In this document: in pieces, positions 46,532 to 59,239 of the stretch
Numbering within the stretch: the stretch's first letter is position 1
Layout of the letters: each line of letters begins with the position of its first letter
Assembly (NCBI GenBank): GCA_028284805.1
Contig: JANQQZ010000091.1
Location: 1-64,000 of the forward strand
Reading direction: 5' to 3'
Length of the DNA stretch: 64,000 bases
DNA from: Phycisphaerales bacterium
Lineage (GTDB): Bacteria; Planctomycetota; Phycisphaerae; Phycisphaerales; UBA1924
The notes under the pieces: generated by a model
Told to the model about the DNA's origin: nothing
The model's input: the letters and a program-made list of their open reading frames with translations, nothing else
Databases searched by the model: none
Translations under genes and position numbers: made by a program

Positions 46532-47482
46532 ATGAGCACGGATGACCAGCGCCAACCCGAGAACGCCGATTTCTGGACCCGTGTCCGTCGGTGGGTGCTG
46601 CGTCTCTCCGTCGCGGGCCTGCTGATCTCGCTGGCCGTCCATGTCGGGATGCTCGTGCTCGCGGCCGTCTTCCTGGTGGGCGGCGGGGGCTCGGGCGGCA
46701 ATCAGGACGGCGACGCTCCGTCGGTCGTTGAGTTCGCCGTGATGCCCGAGAGCCAGTTCGAGGCGGTCAGTGAGGTCGAGATCGACATCCAGACGCCCGA
46801 CGTGGAGTCCCTGCTCGCTGAGGAGGCGATCGACGTCGAACTGACCGAGCTGGCGACCGAGCCGCTCAGCACACGCCAGCTCGATCTCGAGGTGACCTCG
46901 GGCTCGGGCGGAGACTCGTTGGAAGTCGAGGGCGTCTCCGGCAGCGGCGGCGCGACGGGCAATGCCGCGAGCTTCTTCGGGATCGAGGCCCGGGGCAATC
47001 GCTTCGCGTACGTCGTGGATGTATCCGGATCGATGGACCAGGACGGGCGCATGCGGGTCATGCTGACCGAACTCCAGCGGTCGGTCACCGAGCTCGGCAG
47101 CCACGCGAGCTTCTACATCGTCTTCTACAGCGACGACGCGTTCCCGCTGGGCAACCGACGCGAGTGGACCGACGCGACCGGTGACGGCAAGCGCTGGGCC
47201 CGTGAGAAGCTGGCTGCCGTGGAGGCGCTGGGCTCGACCCGTCCGCTGCCCGCGTTCGACCTGGTCTCGCGCATCCGGCCCAGGGCCGACGCGATCTACT
47301 TCATGACCGACGGGAAGTTCGATGACACAGACGTCGGCACGATTCTCTCCCAGAACCGCGAGCGCCCGACCCCGATCCACTGCATCACCTTCGTGACACG
47401 CGACGGCGAGGCGAACATGCGCCGGATTGCCGAAGCGACGGGCGGGACCTACACGCACGTCCCCGGGGGGGGCAGGCCTTGA
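46532..47482 (+). CDS. Membrane-anchored von Willebrand factor A domain protein
   Basis: TM LSVAGLLISLAVHVGMLVLAAVFLV; MIDAS FAYVVDVSGSMDQ; YFMTDGKFDD. Confidence 0.85.
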   Translation: MSTDDQRQPENADFWTRVRRWVLRLSVAGLLISLAVHVGMLVLAAVFLVGGGGSGGNQDGDAPSVVEFAVMPESQFEAVSEVEIDIQTPDVESLLAEEAIDVELTELATEPLSTRQLDLEVTSGSGGDSLEVEGVSGSGGATGNAASFFGIEARGNRFAYVVDVSGSMDQDGRMRVMLTELQRSVTELGSHASFYIVFYSDDAFPLGNRREWTDATGDGKRWAREKLAAVEALGSTRPLPAFDLVSRIRPRADAIYFMTDGKFDDTDVGTILSQNRERPTPIHCITFVTRDGEANMRRIAEATGGTYTHVPGGGRP

Positions 47483-48576
47483 TCCGTCTGGCGCTGGTCG
47501 TGTTGTTGCAGTTCCCGTTCGCGTGCATCGCGCAGCCTGCGGTCGTGCTGCGCGATGGGAGCACCAAGCCACTCGAGCAGATGGAGGTCGGCTCGGCCGG
47601 CGTGCAGGGCGTGGTGGGCGGCGTGCCCAGGCTGGTCACGTGGGACCGGGTTCGCGGACTCCAAGGCGTTGATGCAACCGGTGCGCAGGCCTATCTGTCG
47701 GCGGGCGAGGCCTTGTGGCGAGGCATCACTCGGCTCGACCGAGGCGACGCGATCGCGGCAATCGAACCGCTGGAGTCGGCCTTCGACACGTTCGCCGGGT
47801 TTGACGGCGCAACGACATCGATCGCGGCCGATGCCTTGCTGGCAGCGAGGCTTCGGCTCGGAGAAGCCGAGGGTTCCGTGCTGCCCTGGGTCGTCCGGCT
47901 CGAGCAGGACATCCGTTTGCTGGAGCCGCCCGCGGGTCGACGGGTGGACCTCGACCCCATGACCCGGCTGGTGCCAACACTGCCACCCGTGTTCGTCGGG
48001 GGGCGCAAGCCCGGTGCCGCGGCTGCCGAACTCGCCGATGGCGGCTTCGATCGGTGGACCGAGGGCCCGAACCGACGACTGGCAGAGTTGTACGCGTCGG
48101 CGATGCTGATTGCCGTGGGCGAGGACCCTCCGGTGATCCCGGACGATGTGGACGACGCGGGCATCCGGCTCGTACGAGCGATGGTGGTCTCGAGGCACTC
48201 GGATCCGGCGCTTCGAGAGGCCGCCAGGCGGGAACTCAGGCGGTTCCTCGCCGAGACAGAGCAGGAGTGGACGAGGGCGTGGTGCCACGCCGGGATTGGG
48301 CTGTCGCTGCTCCAGGAATCGGGATCCCAGCGCCTCGCGGGGGTGGGGCACCTGCTCATGCTGCCCAGCCGCTACGCGGAGTCGCAGCCCTATCTGGCAG
48401 GGGTGTGTCTGGCCGAGGCGGCGGTTGTACTCTACGAAACCGGGCGCACGGAGACGGCGCGGGCCCTCGCCGACGAGCTCGATGTACAGTTCCCGCTTCA
48501 TCCCGTGCGCAGGATGCCTGCGCTCAGAGCGATCCGCACGCTTCGCACCGCAGAGACCAACGGAACCGGACCATGA
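47479..48576 (+). CDS. Exported hypothetical protein of Exb-like operon
   Basis: TTG start, 4-nt overlaps both sides; signal peptide; helical repeat-like C-terminus. Confidence 0.65.
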   Translation: MIRLALVVLLQFPFACIAQPAVVLRDGSTKPLEQMEVGSAGVQGVVGGVPRLVTWDRVRGLQGVDATGAQAYLSAGEALWRGITRLDRGDAIAAIEPLESAFDTFAGFDGATTSIAADALLAARLRLGEAEGSVLPWVVRLEQDIRLLEPPAGRRVDLDPMTRLVPTLPPVFVGGRKPGAAAAELADGGFDRWTEGPNRRLAELYASAMLIAVGEDPPVIPDDVDDAGIRLVRAMVVSRHSDPALREAARRELRRFLAETEQEWTRAWCHAGIGLSLLQESGSQRLAGVGHLLMLPSRYAESQPYLAGVCLAEAAVVLYETGRTETARALADELDVQFPLHPVRRMPALRAIRTLRTAETNGTGP

Positions 48577-49292
48577 CGATGCTCAGCAGCCTCCCGTTTC
48601 TTCTTCAGCTCGCGCAGGACGATCCCGTCGGGCGGAAGTCGCTGTTCGAGCACATCGCCTCGGGCGGCCCGATCGGTTTCGTGATCATCCTGCTTTCGTT
48701 CGCTGCGATGGCGCTTGTGGTGATCCAGCTGATCCAGCTCCGCCTTGACCGTCTCGCACCGGATGAGCACGTCCAGCGTCTGGGCGAGATGCTGCTGAAC
48801 CGCCAGATCGATCAGGCGCGGGCCTACTGCCTCGAGCACGACCAGCCGAGCTTTCTCACGCACGTTGTCGGGTCCGCGCTCTCCAGGTGCGCGCGTTCAC
48901 CGTTCGGCCTCCTCGAGTTCAGGAGCGCTCTCGAAGAGTCCGGGCAGACCGAGGTCGGCAGGCTGATGCGATCCACCGAGGGCCTTGCGCTGATCGCGTC
49001 GGTCAGCCCGATGCTGGGTCTGCTCGGAACGGTCGTCGGGATGGTCGGCGCGTTCGACCGCCTCGGGTCGTCCGCGGGCGGCTTCGCGCGGCCCGATGAG
49101 CTCGCTGGCAGCATCTCGATCGCGCTCATCACGACCGTCCTCGGGCTCGTGGTCGCGATCCCCGTGACCGCGGCTGTCTCGCTGTTCCGGAACCGGATCG
49201 AGTCGCTCGCCGCCAGCGTCGCGGAGCGGACGGAGGAACTGCTCGGCTACGTCGAGAGCCATCAGGCCGCGGCGGATCGGGGGCGAGTGTGA
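48573..49292 (+). CDS. MotA/TolQ/ExbB proton channel family protein
   Basis: GLALIASVSPMLGLLGTVVGMVGAFDRLGSSAGG..LAGSISIALITTVLGLVVAIPV. Confidence 0.92.
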   Translation: MTMLSSLPFLLQLAQDDPVGRKSLFEHIASGGPIGFVIILLSFAAMALVVIQLIQLRLDRLAPDEHVQRLGEMLLNRQIDQARAYCLEHDQPSFLTHVVGSALSRCARSPFGLLEFRSALEESGQTEVGRLMRSTEGLALIASVSPMLGLLGTVVGMVGAFDRLGSSAGGFARPDELAGSISIALITTVLGLVVAIPVTAAVSLFRNRIESLAASVAERTEELLGYVESHQAAADRGRV

Positions 49293-49699
49293 TCGGGCGG
49301 CGCTCACATGTGTCGGCCTTCGATCTCACGCCCATGATCGATGTCGTGCTGCTGCTGATCATCTTCTTCCTGGTGTCGGCGCAGATCTCTCGGTCGATCC
49401 GTCAGCCGCTCGATCTGCCTGACCAGCCTGGCGCGTCGGAAGAAGCCGCCTCCGACGAGAGCGTGCTCGTGGTGGACCTGCTCCGGGGGGGCGTGCTGAG
49501 AGTTGACAACGAGGTTGTCGACTTCGAGACCTTTGGTGCGATGCTGGAAGCCGAATCGGGTGCCGAACGAGTCGTGCTCGTCCGGGCCGAGCAGGACACT
49601 CTGGCCAGACACCTGAACCGGCTGACCCGGCTGCTCACGGAGAAGGGCACGGTGACGTACCGGATCGCGACAGATCCCTCCGGGAGGAGCGGGGGATGA
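49289..49699 (+). CDS. ExbD/TolR biopolymer transport protein
   Basis: SAFDLTPMIDVVLLLIIFFLVSAQ. Confidence 0.9.
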   Translation: MIGRRSHVSAFDLTPMIDVVLLLIIFFLVSAQISRSIRQPLDLPDQPGASEEAASDESVLVVDLLRGGVLRVDNEVVDFETFGAMLEAESGAERVVLVRAEQDTLARHLNRLTRLLTEKGTVTYRIATDPSGRSGG

Positions 49700-50109
49700 G
49701 GTTTGTGCGTGTCGACACCGCCGACCGCGCCACGAGGCTGCCCCTCATCGGCATGATCGATGTGTTCTTTCTGCTGCTGGTCTACTTCCTGACGAGCGCG
49801 ACCATCACCCCACCCGAAGAGGAACTAGCGGCTTCGCTCTCGGCGGAGAAGGAAGACGCCGCAGCGGCGAGTCTGGAGCCGCAGGTCGTCACCGTCGGTG
49901 CGCCTGCGGCCGGTGTCGGTCGCTTCACGGTCTCCGGCGTCTCGCTCGGGACCCAGGCGGAGCTCGTGTCGTTGCTGTCGTCGCTGCCCAAGGAGCCGGG
50001 TGTGTTCATCCGGGCGAACGACGACGCACGCGTCGACGATGTTGCGGCGGCTCTGCAGGCAAGCCGCGACGCTGGGTTCGAGAGGATCACGTATGTTGCG
50101 CCGGAATGA
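49696..50109 (+). CDS. ExbD/TolR biopolymer transport protein (second)
   Basis: LPLIGMIDVFFLLLVYFLTSATITPPEEEL. Confidence 0.88.
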   Translation: MRFVRVDTADRATRLPLIGMIDVFFLLLVYFLTSATITPPEEELAASLSAEKEDAAAASLEPQVVTVGAPAAGVGRFTVSGVSLGTQAELVSLLSSLPKEPGVFIRANDDARVDDVAAALQASRDAGFERITYVAPE

Positions 50110-52699
50110 GCCATGGCTGGTCATCGCTGGCCTTCTGCTCGTGTGCTGCGGCGCTCGCGCTCAGGAAGACCGGCACGCTCGATACCTCAGCGACTTCGGC
50201 CTGGGTGATGTGTATGCCGAGTACCTGCTCGATCAGCTCGAGGGCAGCACGGGGGCCGAGCGAACCGCGATTGCTCAGGAACTCGCGGGGGTGTATCTGG
50301 ATCTGCTGCAGGAAGTCAGCGCTCCCTCGGACCGCCAGCGCTGGGCCGAGCGGGCGGCGGCGCTGCTGCGTGTTGTCCCAGAGGCCGATTCACCGGGCCT
50401 GCGTCTTGGGCTCGCGCAGGCCGCCTACTTCAAGGCAGAGGAGACAGCCGAGCGCAGCGTGCTTTTGCTGACGACCGAGCGGGAATCGGCCGAGGCTCAG
50501 CGGATCCTCAGGGAAGTCGGGCCGACCTTCGTTTCGATCGCGCAGCAGGCCCATCAGGAGGCGGACAGGCTCGAGCGTGAGCTGTCGAAACAGCTCGAGC
50601 GTGAGGAGGAGGACGATGTTGCCGCGCGGCTCGCCGAGGCGAGGCGCGTCCGTTCCATCGCGTTCTACTTCGCGGGTTGGTGCAGCTACTACACCGCCGA
50701 GCTCTCTGGCAACGAGGCCTCCGCGAACCAGGCGCTCCGTCACTTCGGCTGGATTCTCGGTGCACGCGATGGCTCTGCCGCGACGGTGGATCAGATGCAG
50801 CCGGGCCTGCTGCGGTACGAGCACGTGGCCCGATCCGCCATCGGCGCGGCGATGGCGTGCTCGATAACCGGACGGTCACTCGAAGCACGTGCATGGCTCG
50901 ATGCCGTAGCCCGCTCGACGGAAGCCCCGGAATCGATCCGGGCCACACTGCCGTCTCGGAGGGTGCGTGTCCTCGCGGCGGCCGGGGCCTGGCCCGACGT
51001 TGACACGATCGCTCGTCGTGCCCTCGCCTCAACGGCGACCCCCCCCGATACGACCTTCACGAGGCTGATCGCCGTGCTGTCGCTCGAGCGGCTTGACGCG
51101 GGCCCGGGGCGTCACACGCAGCTGGTCCGTCGCCTCGCAGAAGAGGCGCTCGCGAGCCTCGTGCGGGCCGCGGAGATCGGCCATGTGACGGATCTGGCCC
51201 GTCGGTTCGGCGGGGATCTGGTCGAGGGTGAAGGCTTCGTCCCGAGCTATGTCCGCGCGGTGATGCAGCACGAGGCCGCTCGCGAGATCCTCGATCGGTA
51301 CGGCTCGGGCGATGCAAGAGCCGCGACTGCGCTGCTCGAGGCTGCGCAGCAGCTCACGTCCGCGTCTTCGGCGCCCGACGCCGATCGGTTCCCGGAGGAG
51401 CGAGCACGGGCGTTGTTCGATGCTGGGCTCGCGCTGTACGAAGCGGGGCGTCTGACAGAGGCGGGGGAGTTGTTCGAGCAGTGCCAGGTGATGGCCAACT
51501 CTGACGAACAGCGTCGCGAAGCAGCCTGGATGCGTGTGGTCACGCTGGAGCGGGCCGTCGAGCAGGGTGATGCCGCGAGCGCCGAATCGCGCGACCAGGC
51601 GGCGCTGCTGTTTCTTTCGGCGCATCCCAACTCGGACGAGGCGGCGCAGCTTGCGTTGCGCCCGTCGACCGCGAGGCTCCTCACGGAGGGACAGGCTGTT
51701 GAGATCCTGCTGAGCGTCCCGCCTTCGGCGTCGAACTACGCCGCGGCACGCCGCCGTGCGTCCGCGCTGCTGTACCGCCGGTACCGTGCGGCGGACCCGA
51801 TCGATCGCCCGCTCGTCGCCGAGCAGTTCATGGCGCTCGCGGAGGAACTTGTGGCTCAGGACGGGGCGCAGCTGCGCGCCGTTTCCTCCGAGCAGGCGGG
51901 CACGATCGCCGAGGGTGTGATCATCAGCGCCCGGCGCCTCGCTGACGTTGCCCTCACGCTGCCAGAGCCCGATCTCGATCGGGCGATCTTCGCACTCGAG
52001 ACGATCGAACGCACTGCCGACTACGCCTCGATCGATCTCGGAGAGACCGCGGACGAGCTCCGCTTCAGGCGGCTGCAGATCGCTTCCGCACAGGGACGCT
52101 ACGACGAGGCGACCCGCCTGGCGGAGCAGATCGCGCAGGGCGGCAGCCCGTTCGCGACGACGGCGGTGCAGCTGATGTATCGCGATTCCGTTCGGGTTTG
52201 GATTGAGAGCCAGGGCGATCCTCAGTCCGCTGAACGGGTCGTTCGGTTTGGGCAGGCGGTGCGTGCGTCGCTGGCGGATCGACCCGCCGCGATCGCGAGT
52301 GTGCTTCAGACCGTCGCGCAGGCCGCCGACGTGCTCGCCCGCACAACGGGCGACGCCGAGCATGTGTCCGTGGCGGTGAGCGCGCGAGAAGAACTCCTCC
52401 GGATGGGCAGAGCGGACGACGCGTCGCTGCGTTCGCTCGCGCGGAACTACGCAACGCTTGGTGACGCGGGGCGTTCCGCGGAAACCTGGCTCACGGTGCT
52501 TCAGCGATCGGACCCCGCGTCGTTGGCGTGGTACGAGGCCAGGCTGGAGTCGCTCCGCCAGCTCGAGGTGTCCGATCCCGAGACCGCGCGCGATGCCGCC
52601 CGTCAGTTCAAGTCTCTTCACCCCGACTACGGCCCGGCGAAGTACCGCCAGGCCTTCCGTGACCTGCTCGGGCGTCTGCTCGTGGATGAGCCGGAGTAG
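50093..52699 (+). CDS. Exported large TPR-like protein
   Basis: Signal peptide MLRRNEPWLVIAGLLLVCCGARAQ; long all-helical repeat region. Confidence 0.7.
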   Translation: MLRRNEPWLVIAGLLLVCCGARAQEDRHARYLSDFGLGDVYAEYLLDQLEGSTGAERTAIAQELAGVYLDLLQEVSAPSDRQRWAERAAALLRVVPEADSPGLRLGLAQAAYFKAEETAERSVLLLTTERESAEAQRILREVGPTFVSIAQQAHQEADRLERELSKQLEREEEDDVAARLAEARRVRSIAFYFAGWCSYYTAELSGNEASANQALRHFGWILGARDGSAATVDQMQPGLLRYEHVARSAIGAAMACSITGRSLEARAWLDAVARSTEAPESIRATLPSRRVRVLAAAGAWPDVDTIARRALASTATPPDTTFTRLIAVLSLERLDAGPGRHTQLVRRLAEEALASLVRAAEIGHVTDLARRFGGDLVEGEGFVPSYVRAVMQHEAAREILDRYGSGDARAATALLEAAQQLTSASSAPDADRFPEERARALFDAGLALYEAGRLTEAGELFEQCQVMANSDEQRREAAWMRVVTLERAVEQGDAASAESRDQAALLFLSAHPNSDEAAQLALRPSTARLLTEGQAVEILLSVPPSASNYAAARRRASALLYRRYRAADPIDRPLVAEQFMALAEELVAQDGAQLRAVSSEQAGTIAEGVIISARRLADVALTLPEPDLDRAIFALETIERTADYASIDLGETADELRFRRLQIASAQGRYDEATRLAEQIAQGGSPFATTAVQLMYRDSVRVWIESQGDPQSAERVVRFGQAVRASLADRPAAIASVLQTVAQAADVLARTTGDAEHVSVAVSAREELLRMGRADDASLRSLARNYATLGDAGRSAETWLTVLQRSDPASLAWYEARLESLRQLEVSDPETARDAARQFKSLHPDYGPAKYRQAFRDLLGRLLVDEPE

Positions 52700-52702
52700 A
52701 CC

Positions 52703-55327
52703 GTGCGAGAGTCTCCGATCCAGCAGATTCTCGGTGTCGAGAACGCCGCCAACCCCTTCGAGGTGCTCGGGCTCCCGGTCGATGTGGTCTCAGACAGCGT
52801 TGTGGTCGACGCGCTCGCGGCGCGCGTCAAGGCGGTCGCTGCCCACCCGATGAGCGAGACCCCCGAGGGCAACGAGGTGCGTCTGGCTCTTCACGCCGCA
52901 GCGGCGCAGCTTCTTGATCCGAGGATCCGCCAGGCGCTGTATGACCGCGCCGGTCTCGCGCCGGATCGAGCCCCACCCGCCCGTGTGGTCTCGGGAAGTG
53001 CGCTGGGCCCGCGAGCGATGATGGTCATCGCGGCCGAAGGGGGCTGGAACGCACACGCGCTGCGCCGGCTCGCGATGCTGGCCCACGCCGAGGGGATCCC
53101 TTCTACGGCAATCCCACAGACTCTGCGTGGTCTGGTCGGCGAATCGCACGGGGCTCCGCCGGTCCCCCAGAGCGAACGACGCGGCAGAACGCCGAAGCAT
53201 CGAAGTGCCTCGCGAGAGTCGGACCGCATCGGGCTGGGCGTCACCGCGGGGATCACTGCTTTGGCGATCGTCATGCTCGGCGCAACGTGGCTGCTGCTCA
53301 GCCGGTCGCTCGGTGAGACTGCGCCCGCGGTCGTGCCGTCTCAGACGGTTGCTGAACAAGAGGTCGCTGAACTGGATGAGAGCCTTCACGAACTGCCGCC
53401 GCGGGACGCCTCCCCGAGCGAGCCTGCACCGGTCGCCGAGCCCGAAGAACCCGACTGGTCGGCCGCCCTGATCGGCGTGCGAGACGCGGGCGGCCCGATC
53501 GATGCACAGACTGTTCTGATGATCCTGGACGGGATCGCATCGGATTGGGCGCGCCTGGACGCGCGGCCTGTGCGCCGCGTCGTCTCCGCGTTCGTTGACG
53601 TGGTGTACCTGTTGCCCAACTCGGAAGCGCTCGGTCTTGTGAACACGATGGCGGACCTGATCCGCGACGACGACCCCGGGGTTGCCTGTCTCAACGCAGG
53701 CCTGCTCAGCCGTCTCGCGGTTGAGCGTTCGCTCCCGACGCAGTTGGACAACGCGGTGATCGCTGCGTTGGTGTCGACCATCGACACGAGCCGCACCGCC
53801 GCGGACGACGAGTTCATCCGGGGCGCCGCCGCTGGGCTGCGGTACAACGCGCGAGGCTGGGTTTCCGACCCGCCATCCGACGCGGAAGCCACGCGCTGGC
53901 TGGTAGTTGCTGATGCGATCGCGCGTCTGAGCCCCGATATCGGTGCGGTCTCGATCCGTGAGACGCTGGCAATGATGATCCGGTCCGGGCCGGACCCGCT
54001 CTCGAGCTCTGCAGCGCTGTCGCTGATCGAGCGTCTCGCCGAGCGTGTCAGCCCAACCGCGGATCCTGAGTCGGCTGGGCTTGTCCTGAGTCTGCTGTCG
54101 GATCAGGCTATCACGACCCGGGCCGTATCGGCTTTGGTCAATGCCATCGCGCGGCGGACCCCAGACGCACCGGGTGCGGAGCCGATCCGGCTCTCGCCGA
54201 CCGCGTCGGACTCGGAACGGGCGGACGTCCGCGCGCTGGCCTCGGAACGGTGGCTCGGTGCGAGCGCGCTCCCGGAAGAGCTCGGGGTTTTGCGCGAGGC
54301 GATCAGGGAGCATCTGCAGGGTGACGTGGGACAGACGCCGAGCGAGCAACTCGCGGACAGCGTCGTCAGCGCCGGATTGGCCAACGCGTGCAGGATGGTT
54401 CTCTGGGGCGATGCCGAGCGTGCGGTGCAGCTAGCCGAGGCCGGACGGAGTGACGTCGACGCGGTTCTGGCAGGTCGGCGGTCGTCTGGGAGCCCCCGCC
54501 TAAGCGACGGAAGCGAGCCCTGGGCCGTGAGGTACCTCGAGGCCAAGCGGAACATCCCGGTCCGGCTCTCGCTGCTGGGCGAGCTCGCGCAGCGTCCGCG
54601 TGAGGTCGGGCCGATCACTGCCGAGATCATCGTCGCCGAAGCCCTGAACGGGTCGCCCGCCAGGGTCCGCCGCGAGGCCCACACGGTGGTCGCGCGGCTG
54701 TCCAACCAGGCGACGGTACTCAACGGTCTGCTCGAGCAGTTGCCCACGGCGCCGCGCGTCCCCTCTGTGCAGGAACTCGTCGAGACCGCCGCCCAAACCA
54801 GTCTCATCGGCATCAGGGATCCCGACTGGCCCATGATGGCCAGACGCGCGATCGTCGATCGGCTGCTTGAGGTTCTCGCGGCCGATGGTTCGAGCGCTGC
54901 GATCGACACGCTCGCGGCGATGCTCTCCGACGAGTACGGCATGATGCTGGGGAATCCCCCGGGCAGCGGTGAGCGAGCCTCGGTCCTTGCCGAAGGGCTG
55001 GTTGAGGAACGTGTCGCCGAGATCCTGCGGACCGACCTTGCGGGGAACTCCTCGGCTTACGTCGACGCCCGCCTCCGCAGCCTCGCGGGCCGACGATCGC
55101 TCGCCGAGGGCACCGCGATGACCTTCGCGGCGGCGCAGGTAACGGCAACCGAGCTGCTCGCTGAGATCGTGGCGCTGGAGTACCCGCACAAGCGACCCGA
55201 ACTCGACCAAGTCCTCGGAACGTTGTCCGAATCGCGTTCGAGAGCTCGCTCGGTCTTCGAGCAGATCGCGGCCGCTGAACGCGCCTCGCTCCAGATCTGG
55301 GCACATCGTGTAGGAGTCGAGCCTTGA
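52703..55327 (+). CDS. Membrane protein with N-terminal J-like region, TM and long helical-repeat domain
   Basis: NPFEVLGLPVDVVSDSVVVDALAARVKAVAAHP...LLDPRIRQALYDRAGL; TM GVTAGITALAIVMLGATWLLL; GTG start. Confidence 0.65.
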   Translation: MRESPIQQILGVENAANPFEVLGLPVDVVSDSVVVDALAARVKAVAAHPMSETPEGNEVRLALHAAAAQLLDPRIRQALYDRAGLAPDRAPPARVVSGSALGPRAMMVIAAEGGWNAHALRRLAMLAHAEGIPSTAIPQTLRGLVGESHGAPPVPQSERRGRTPKHRSASRESDRIGLGVTAGITALAIVMLGATWLLLSRSLGETAPAVVPSQTVAEQEVAELDESLHELPPRDASPSEPAPVAEPEEPDWSAALIGVRDAGGPIDAQTVLMILDGIASDWARLDARPVRRVVSAFVDVVYLLPNSEALGLVNTMADLIRDDDPGVACLNAGLLSRLAVERSLPTQLDNAVIAALVSTIDTSRTAADDEFIRGAAAGLRYNARGWVSDPPSDAEATRWLVVADAIARLSPDIGAVSIRETLAMMIRSGPDPLSSSAALSLIERLAERVSPTADPESAGLVLSLLSDQAITTRAVSALVNAIARRTPDAPGAEPIRLSPTASDSERADVRALASERWLGASALPEELGVLREAIREHLQGDVGQTPSEQLADSVVSAGLANACRMVLWGDAERAVQLAEAGRSDVDAVLAGRRSSGSPRLSDGSEPWAVRYLEAKRNIPVRLSLLGELAQRPREVGPITAEIIVAEALNGSPARVRREAHTVVARLSNQATVLNGLLEQLPTAPRVPSVQELVETAAQTSLIGIRDPDWPMMARRAIVDRLLEVLAADGSSAAIDTLAAMLSDEYGMMLGNPPGSGERASVLAEGLVEERVAEILRTDLAGNSSAYVDARLRSLAGRRSLAEGTAMTFAAAQVTATELLAEIVALEYPHKRPELDQVLGTLSESRSRARSVFEQIAAAERASLQIWAHRVGVEP

Positions 55328-56205
55328 AGACGCTCGCCGCGTACGTTCTGATGCTCGTCGTTGTGCTCGCAGGGGGCGTCGGTGCTCAGACCCCAGAGGA
55401 GCGTTTCGAGGACCGACTCTCGACGCTCACGCCGAGCAATCCTGCGGCGTACTACCTTCTCGCGGAGGAGGTGGCCTACGCGGCGAGCACACCTGGGGAA
55501 CTCGACCTCGCGCGCCATCTGTACGTGCTCGCGTTCGTTCTGAGTGATCGCGATCCCGGTGTGCCCTGGTTGCGCCCGAGCTCGTGCGTCGCGCTTGCGG
55601 CTCTGGAGGTCGACCCCGCGCGGCGTCGCTGGCTCTACGCGGTTGCCGCCCTGATCGACGACCGGTACACGGGGCTCGCTGCGGAGGCGGATCACCTTGC
55701 GGAGGTGCCCGCCCCGACCAGGCTGGCGTTCGCGGAGTTTCTCGGTCTGACGCGTGCTGGGCGCGGTGCCCTTGCCCGCCAGCGTCTCGAGCTGCCCGGG
55801 ATGGACGAGCTGATCGACGCGATCAGTTCGGCTGTCGTCGGCAATCGGTCGGTCCCGTCGATCAACCGGATGCGCAGCGAGGCCGGCGTCTGGCCCTGCA
55901 AGCAGTGCAGCAACGCACGCTCCGTGCCCGATCCGTCCAGCCCAGAGACCGAACGCGTGCTGTGCCCGAACTGCCGGGGGAACCCGGGGCCCCTGCTCGA
56001 TACCGACGACCTCGTCGCCTACACCGCGCTCGAAGCGATCGTGCTCCGGGCCGACGGGCGCACCTGGTCGGCCGAGCACGCCATGCTCCGCACGGGCCCC
56101 CTCCGCGATCCGGATCTCGGGCAGGTCCCTCGCATGTTCGCGATCGATCCGACGCGATCGGTCTATAACTCGGGGCAGTGGGTCACCCCTGATCCCGACA
56201 CCTAA
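55324..56205 (+). CDS. Exported protein with CxxC...CxxC zinc-ribbon-like segment
   Basis: Signal peptide; WPCKQCSNARSVPDPSSPETERVLCPNCRGNPGP. Confidence 0.65.
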   Translation: MKTLAAYVLMLVVVLAGGVGAQTPEERFEDRLSTLTPSNPAAYYLLAEEVAYAASTPGELDLARHLYVLAFVLSDRDPGVPWLRPSSCVALAALEVDPARRRWLYAVAALIDDRYTGLAAEADHLAEVPAPTRLAFAEFLGLTRAGRGALARQRLELPGMDELIDAISSAVVGNRSVPSINRMRSEAGVWPCKQCSNARSVPDPSSPETERVLCPNCRGNPGPLLDTDDLVAYTALEAIVLRADGRTWSAEHAMLRTGPLRDPDLGQVPRMFAIDPTRSVYNSGQWVTPDPDT

Positions 56206-56220
56206 CCGCTGAGGACCTCC

Positions 56221-56589
56221 ATGGACACCGTGCCGCTGAAGCCCGAGATCTCGTTTGACGAGTTCGCCAAGGTCGACCTCCGTGTCGCGACGATCACCGA
56301 GGCCGAACCGCATCCCGATGCCGACAAGCTGCTCCGCCTGCAGCTGGACGACGGCAGCGGCGAGCCGCGGCAGATCTGCGCAGGTGTGAGGGCGTACTAC
56401 GACCCCGCGGAGCTCGTCGGCAAGCAGATCATCATCGTGGCGAACCTCGCGCCCCGGAAGCTGCGCGGTGAGGAGTCACGGGGCATGCTGCTCGCCGCGA
56501 GCGATGCGCCCAAGGACGCCGATGCCGAACGCAGTGTGGTCCTGCTCACGCCCATGGCGCCCACAGCGACCGGTTCGATCGTGTCCTAG
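56221..56589 (+). CDS. tRNA-binding domain protein (MetRS C-terminal / MetG-beta like)
   Basis: FAKVDLRVATITEAEPHPDADKLLRLQLDDG; QIIIVANLAPRKLRGEESRGMLLAAS. Confidence 0.88.
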   Translation: MDTVPLKPEISFDEFAKVDLRVATITEAEPHPDADKLLRLQLDDGSGEPRQICAGVRAYYDPAELVGKQIIIVANLAPRKLRGEESRGMLLAASDAPKDADAERSVVLLTPMAPTATGSIVS

Positions 56590-57762: not shown

Positions 57763-58332
57763 TTACGCCTCCGCTTGCTCGTGTTCGGGTTCCAGCATCG
57801 CCCGCAGCTTCCCGACTGCCCGGTGGTGCCTGGCGAGCACCGTGCCCAGCGGCTGCCCCAGCATCTCGGCGATCGCGCCGAACCCGAGCTGGGCGTGGTG
57901 TCTGAGCGAGAGCACCTCCTGATCCGCCTCGGGCAGCGACGCGATCGCGTCGCGCAGGGTCCGATTCGTGTCGGAACGCTCGCCCGCGTCGTGCGCCGCG
58001 TGGGGGTCGCCCGACAGCTCCAGGCTGTGCGTCCGGTGACGCTGCGTCCGCCTCACTCGATCGCGAACCCGGTTCATGGCGATCCGGAAGAGCCAGCTCT
58101 CGAACTGGCCCGTGTGGGTGTACCGCCCGGTCGAGATGTGCTCGAAGACCGTGACCATCACCGACTGGGTGACCTCCTCAGCGGCGTCCGGGTCGCGGAG
58201 CCGGCTCTTGGCCGCGGCGTAGACCCGGCGCGACCAGAGACCGACCAGCTGTTCCCAGGCACCGGACTCGCCGCGGATCGCGGCCTGTACAACCTGATCG
58301 GGATCCAGGGCTTCCGGTCTCGAATCGCTCAC
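57763..58332 (-). CDS. ECF RNA polymerase sigma factor
   Basis: DPDAAEEVTQSVMVTVFEHI...FESWLFRIAMNRVRDRVRR; LGFGAIAEMLGQPLGTVLARHHRAVGKLR. Confidence 0.9.
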   Translation of the reverse strand: MSDSRPEALDPDQVVQAAIRGESGAWEQLVGLWSRRVYAAAKSRLRDPDAAEEVTQSVMVTVFEHISTGRYTHTGQFESWLFRIAMNRVRDRVRRTQRHRTHSLELSGDPHAAHDAGERSDTNRTLRDAIASLPEADQEVLSLRHHAQLGFGAIAEMLGQPLGTVLARHHRAVGKLRAMLEPEHEQAEA

Positions 58333-58519: not shown

Positions 58520-59239
58520 ATGACTCGTGCAGCGGCGAGAACTTGGACGCGGCCGGGCCTTGAGCCCAGGATCGGCACGCGGAGGGGCGGGGCCATCGCG
58601 CAGAACCGTGTGTCGCAACCTGACGAGCCCTCGCTTAGCGGAGAAACCGACGAGCAGTTGGTCCGCTTGTACGTCCGGGGCGAGCGTGAGGCCCTCCGCG
58701 TCATCATCGATCGCTACCAGGTGGACCTGATGCGGTTCCTGACCCGCCTGACCGGGGCGCGCGACGCGGCCGAGGACGCGTTCCAGGAGACCTTCCTCCA
58801 GTTCCACCAGTCCGCGTCCCGCTTCGACACGTCTCGGCGTCTCCGCCCTTGGCTGTTCACCATCGCCGCCAACAAGGCCCGCGACGGTCTCCGCAAGAAG
58901 GGGCGGCAGCCCTCGCTCACGCTCTCGCGCAACGTCGGCTCCGACGACTCGGTCGAGTTTGTCGATCTGCTCGAGATCGACACGCCCGCCCCGAGCTCGG
59001 GCGTGCTCGCCCGGGAGCAGCAGGCCTTGGTCGATCAGGCCGTGTCCAGGCTCTCTCACCCGCTGCGCGAGGTGCTGCTGCTCGCGTATTTTCAGCGTCT
59101 CAGCTACGCACAGATCGCCGAGGAACTGGGCATCCCGCTCGGCACGGTCAAGAGCCGCCTGCACGCCGCGGTGGCCTCCTTCGCGAAGCACTGGCAGCAG
59201 ATCGCCCACGCTCCCACCACCGAGGATCGCGATTCATGA
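58520..59239 (+). CDS. ECF RNA polymerase sigma factor
   Basis: GARDAAEDAFQETFLQFHQSASRFDTSRRLRPWLFTIAANKARDGLRKKG; LSYAQIAEELGIPLGTVKSRLHAA. Start uncertain (58520 or later). Confidence 0.92.
   Translation: MTRAAARTWTRPGLEPRIGTRRGGAIAQNRVSQPDEPSLSGETDEQLVRLYVRGEREALRVIIDRYQVDLMRFLTRLTGARDAAEDAFQETFLQFHQSASRFDTSRRLRPWLFTIAANKARDGLRKKGRQPSLTLSRNVGSDDSVEFVDLLEIDTPAPSSGVLAREQQALVDQAVSRLSHPLREVLLLAYFQRLSYAQIAEELGIPLGTVKSRLHAAVASFAKHWQQIAHAPTTEDRDS

Follow-up and report, generated by a model that had tools for sequence, protein, structure and literature searches.

What kind of machine is encoded by eight tightly packed genes in a planctomycetal genome, and what does it do in the cell envelope? 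The genes occupy positions 46532-56205 of the window, by which we mean the whole stretch of 64,000 nucleotides that was analysed; the host genome (Planctomycetota, 3.3 Mb) is 85% complete. We put at roughly 80% the probability that the cluster encodes a vWA force-transducer machine of the envelope, driven by the proton motive force and with the VWA protein as its arm.

The gene cluster and its conservation

The eight ORFs, all on the (+) strand, encode in this order a VWA protein, the exported protein p2, ExbB, ExbD, a second ExbD (ExbD'), a TPR-like protein of 868 aa, a HEAT-solenoid protein of 874 aa and the exported protein p8. The tight coupling claimed in an earlier note on this DNA is borne out, with ORF positions and overlaps as it gave them: consecutive genes overlap by 4 nt at the VWA/p2, p2/ExbB, ExbB/ExbD, ExbD/ExbD' and 874-aa protein/p8 junctions and by 17 nt at ExbD'/TPR, and the TPR and 874-aa genes are 3 nt apart. 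Clear Pfam matches are found in four of the eight genes (VWA, MotA_ExbB and the two ExbD). No match above threshold was obtained for p2, the 868-aa protein, the 874-aa protein or p8, and for the 874-aa and 293-aa (p8) proteins there was no meaningful Pfam match. A tRNA_bind-domain gene (CsaA/MetRS C-terminal-like, 56221-56589) follows 15 nt downstream of p8, a position that is kept in most loci of family f1; further on lie two divergent genes, read from the sequence only as ECF-type sigma factor-like (57763-58332, (-) strand, and 58520-59239, (+) strand).

All 36 same-family relatives searched carry the gene for the 874-aa protein, as do members of other families of the order, among them family f2, which was added by profile search. 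Eight genes in the same order are present in nearly all of the loci of 20 relatives; one locus lacks ExbB and both ExbD genes (L037), another is cut at a contig end (L039), and p8 was undetected in a third (L038). A survey with a closer VWA alignment, which reaches the Phycisphaerae and near relatives, gave the exact eight-gene order in 50 of the 80 named Phycisphaerae loci. Of the others, 12 lack the motor genes alone, one keeps the order but with repeated ORF calls, and 17 run out at, or close to, an end of the contig or of the examined stretch. In loci that extend far enough, the 868-aa TPR gene is conserved. Two genomes from a different family, outside the class, have the complete set as well (L079, L081), and several further families of the Planctomycetota have a core of VWA, ExbB, ExbD and ExbD', in many cases accompanied by p2 and a long TPR gene. 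A locus titled Cyanobacteria (L156) is probably mislabelled, its TPR row being near-identical to that of a same-family relative (G033). The eight-gene order is conserved far beyond chance. The earlier note had proposed a survey of synteny and had named genes not conserved together as evidence against its own reading; the order turned out to be kept.

The motor and the VWA coupling helix

The motor genes encode an ExbB/TolQ proton-channel subunit of 239 aa (48573..49292; PF01618, MotA_ExbB, 5.1e-26), an ExbD/TolR subunit of 136 aa with a GTG start codon (49289..49699; PF02472, 5.7e-16) and ExbD', a second ExbD/TolR subunit of 137 aa (49696..50109; PF02472, 7.6e-13), the profile of which matches solved ExbD and TolR structures. 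ExbB residues S42, T153 and T188 align with S28, T145 and T178 of TolQ and are invariant in 19 of 19 orthologs. The transmembrane aspartates D18 of ExbD and D22 of ExbD' both align with TolR D23, and each is conserved in 20 of 20 sequences, which answers the check on this residue proposed earlier. The pore threonine pair (T153/T188) and the transmembrane Asp that mark ExbB/TolQ-ExbD/TolR motors are therefore both present. In this respect the earlier note is well supported: ExbB, ExbD and ExbD' would form a proton-driven machine of the envelope, and its partners are conserved along with it. The host genome holds four MotA/ExbB genes, one of which is a flagellar MotA adjoining MotB.

The VWA protein of 316 aa (46532..47482; Pfam VWA_3, 5.3e-7) has a short cytoplasmic N-terminus, one transmembrane helix, a Gly/Ser-rich linker and a C-terminal VWA domain with a complete MIDAS (D163-x-S165-x-S167, T236, D260). 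Matches to Pfam VWA families were obtained for 19-22 of 23 members, and the family profile matches VWA proteins in the PDB at 3e-9. The transmembrane helix carries an S-x3-H motif (S33 and H37; codons for S33-L-A-V-H37 at 46628..46642) of the TonB/TolA motor-coupling type; TolA reads ISAVLHV at the corresponding place. S33, H37 and the five MIDAS residues are invariant in 20 orthologs and likewise in a set of 23 sequences in which several families and lineages of the phylum are represented. In this second set, the members of which are 22-42% identical to the protein of the window, no residue ahead of the VWA region other than Met1, S33 and H37 is invariant. Over 78 orthologs H37 is conserved in 100% and S33 in 97% (Thr otherwise). 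As a point against a TonB/TolA-like arm, the rest of the SHLS motif is not retained, L(+7) being replaced by A/S and S(+11) being variable.

In a structure of TolQRA, TolA S18 and H22 bond TolQ I29 and S28 (PMC12583513), and the TolA H22A substitution abolishes TolQ pull-down (PMC12965293). Because S-x3-H is invariant and is matched by an invariant ExbB Ser corresponding to TolQ S28, the VWA protein is most likely a TonB/TolA-type force transducer of the ExbB-ExbD-ExbD' motor. The same two features led us to reject a stand-alone MIDAS adhesin, the identity given to the protein in the earlier note, since they fit a transducer better. The accompanying statement that TonB and TolA are lacking stands by domain search, as the VWA domain occupies the C-terminus and a TonB/TolA C-terminal domain is missing from the protein, but the VWA protein does bear the TonB/TolA motor-coupling helix.

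Some variants were noted. Thr replaces Ser in the S-x3-H of two loci in which the motor genes are present (L124, L129). The VWA transducers of the two genomes from outside the class (L079:4247-5287, L081:4818-5849) have an extra N-terminal cytoplasmic segment resembling a zinc finger with two CxxC motifs. Two tandem VWA genes lie by one ExbB-ExbD-ExbD' set at L091:8659-10907 and L196:8670-11314, which suggests two alternative transducers per motor.

A family of vWA transducers that includes Planctomycetes has already been proposed in silico by Williams-Jones et al. 2025, MBE (PMC12204202), with a TPR gene, one tolQ-like gene and two different tolR-like genes, and with a function given there as not known; an AF3 model in that paper puts the transducer at the edge of the motor. 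As far as its main text describes the family, our cluster shares with it the Ser and His of SHLS in the transmembrane helix, the linker and the C-terminal VWA domain as well as the adjacent tolQ-like gene, the two different tolR-like genes and the TPR gene. Unlike that description, the VWA gene is located here at the 5' end, SHLS is without its L and S, the motor genes are separable, and genes for p2, a HEAT solenoid and a zinc-ribbon protein, unmentioned in the main text of PMC12204202, belong to the cluster. Literature searches likewise gave no description of the p2, HEAT-solenoid and p8 genes in the accessible text of open-licence papers. The suggestion that the machine was undescribed holds to this extent for these three proteins and fails for the core. 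New are the three further conserved genes, a fusion of p2 to the TPR protein, and the repeated relocation or loss of the motor while the VWA protein keeps S-x3-H.

Partner proteins and role in the envelope

The AlphaFold2 model of p2 (exported, 365 aa, TTG start; 47479..48576) consists of a small beta domain followed by a TPR-like alpha-solenoid (mean pLDDT 88.7), for which Foldseek gave generic TPR matches in the PDB, none at E <= 0.001. The 868-aa protein (50093..52699), also exported, has weak Pfam TPR matches below threshold, and its family profile matches consensus TPR proteins in the PDB at 2e-7, in agreement with a TPR-like alpha-solenoid. A single ORF encodes both p2 and the TPR protein in two genomes (L122 and L134, 1337 and 1350 aa), and this fusion is the best evidence that the two probably work together.

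The 874-aa protein (52703..55327) is predicted by AlphaFold2 (mean pLDDT 80.9) to be a single-pass membrane protein with a degenerate J-like cytoplasmic helical domain (1-85), a transmembrane helix (178-201) and a periplasmic HEAT-like solenoid at about 250-870. Foldseek gave generic HEAT/ARM matches, none at E <= 0.001, and there was no meaningful Pfam match in 21 members of the family. In the J-like region HP is often retained, the third residue is variable and the HPD aspartate is not kept. A J-domain chaperone, as the label J-like in the earlier note implied, was rejected on this loss and on the lack of a Pfam J-domain match in all 21 members. The last protein, p8 (293 aa, 55324..56205), is an exported helical protein with a putative C4 zinc ribbon (C192, C195, C214, C217), assigned by Cys conservation: among 20 orthologs C195, C214 and C217 are invariant and C192 is nearly so. 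In family f4 (L039, L040, L041, L043, L044) the protein has four CxxC motifs, several members showing eight Cys, compared to two CxxC in the family of the window. A DnaJ zinc finger was rejected, as the Pfam profile CXXCXGXG found no match in 20 members. No meaningful homolog of the solenoid and zinc-ribbon families emerged from profile searches of the PDB.

The envelopes of Planctomycetota are unusual, as is the way they divide. The near-universal presence of the cluster in its family makes a housekeeping role in the envelope probable, and a Tol-like role is our best guess, reached mainly by exclusion and held at somewhat less than even odds. Similar to the Tol-Pal system (TolQRA-TolB-Pal-CpoB), the cluster has a motor of the TolQ/TolR type in which pore Thr and Asp are conserved, a TolA-type helix and a TPR protein; unlike it, VWA replaces the TolA C-terminal domain, there are two ExbD types, and pal is missing from the cluster. 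The machine may stand in for Tol-Pal, keep the outer membrane attached and constrict it when the cell divides; VWA would then take the place of TolA, and p2 and the TPR protein would take over the functions of TolB-Pal-CpoB. We regard this as plausible, though a little short of an even chance. It is favoured by the absence of the TolB_N domain from all 21 genomes searched, relatives included, and by the occurrence of the 874-aa gene in every same-family relative searched, which points to housekeeping; CpoB of Tol-Pal is a TPR protein as well (PMC12204202). Three OmpA-domain matches in the host genome, one of them the MotB beside flagellar MotA, provide possible peptidoglycan tethers; however, none is in the cluster, which is also without a Pal-like gene. 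Moreover, the Tol-like role could belong to a second motor locus of the host genome (L191, C14:1-7638). Its genes, in the order TPR-ExbB-ExbD-PD40, of which the last encodes a beta-propeller protein of 973 aa, recall TolQ-TolR-TolB, with neither TolA nor Pal; the genome G004 has a similar set (L194).

The AglRQS machinery of Myxococcus combines one TolQ-like with two TolR-like subunits. The cluster resembles AglRQS/Glt in this composition, with other partners, and the presence of VWA and TPR proteins would suit a machine for surface gliding or adhesion with VWA as the adhesin, a gliding role having been suggested for the transducer family in PMC12204202. Yet the VWA protein is anchored in the inner membrane by its N-terminal transmembrane helix with no sign of surface export, and we consider this alternative unlikely.

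With ExbBD-TonB the cluster shares the motor class and the S-x3-H coupling helix, so that the import of nutrients or macromolecules across the outer membrane, energised as by TonB, might be envisaged; uptake of large substrates was indeed the function that the earlier note entertained. It lacks backing here, because no TonB_C, plug or TolB_N domain was detected in the host genome, nor TonB_2 (provisional results, at 85% completeness). Plug domains occur in just 3 of 12 same-family relatives, which together gave a single weak TonB_C match, and the cluster has no transporter gene; elsewhere in the order, several genomes from other families do have TonB_C. Nutrient import was therefore rejected as very improbable.

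Clusters without a motor and the proposed mechanism

In the 12 loci from which ExbB, ExbD and ExbD' are missing (L121, L122, L134, L142, L144, L153, L157, L159, L160, L162, L163 and L168), p2 either is fused to the TPR gene or directly adjoins it. A tree of the TPR protein requires at least four changes in the motor genes, two of them forced by well-supported branches. In three genomes with motorless clusters an ExbB of the cluster type (257-286 bits) is encoded at another place, next to ExbD genes (L199-L201). The four genomes checked in one clade miss the cognate ExbB and possess only ExbB genes of another class (best 103-116 bits; L193, L202-L204); ExbD-like genes flank those at L193, L202 and L204, and this set is a candidate for a motor borrowed by the motorless clusters. 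In three genomes the other-class ExbB adjoins a tsaE-like gene. S-x3-H is kept in all motorless loci with an intact VWA N-terminus. It is also kept in VWA genes without an ExbB neighbour in other genomes (L085-L089, L094), and both of the genomes checked among these have a second VWA-ExbB-ExbD-ExbD' locus (L195, L197). In favour of a transducer, a further VWA homolog without neighbouring ExbB is without the motif (L090).

The cluster can evidently survive the loss of its own motor, a point against a motor-driven machine, and the motor may act in trans or be borrowed. The motorless loci could also mean that the genes are mere neighbours of a motor, with VWA, p2, TPR and solenoid proteins forming a motor-independent periplasmic complex, but this is hardly probable given the retention of S-x3-H and the three genomes that keep a cluster-type ExbB/ExbD set elsewhere.

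In the machine of the vWA force-transducer class that we prefer, ExbB would form a pentameric stator around an inner pair of ExbD and ExbD', presumably a heterodimer, in which both subunits keep the proton-carrying Asp. The VWA helix would dock on the side of ExbB via H37 and ExbB S42, the linker would span the periplasm, and the MIDAS-type domain would grip a periplasmic or outer-membrane partner. This partner is most likely p2 together with the TPR protein, because the two are one polypeptide in two genomes. The HEAT-solenoid protein and p8 may serve as scaffold or regulator. Sequence data back the proton path, the coupling residues on both sides, the gene set and the p2-TPR fusion; from there we infer that the proteins form a complex, that force is exerted on the partners, and that the role is Tol-like, in maintaining or constricting the envelope. 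Taken as a whole, a scheme for Phycisphaerales and some other Planctomycetota in which the VWA helix pulls a p2-TPR solenoid organised by the HEAT-solenoid protein and p8, replaces Tol-Pal, and in some lineages borrows ExbB-ExbD is tentative and less likely than not.

The cluster names three partners that are absent from the main text of the published description (PMC12204202). The natural cases of motor relocation and loss offer a way to test motor sharing, and the invariant coupling residues, VWA H37 and ExbB S42, are a directly testable candidate. Compact and near-universal, the cluster is a candidate for powering outer-membrane work in Planctomycetota without TonB or Tol-Pal.
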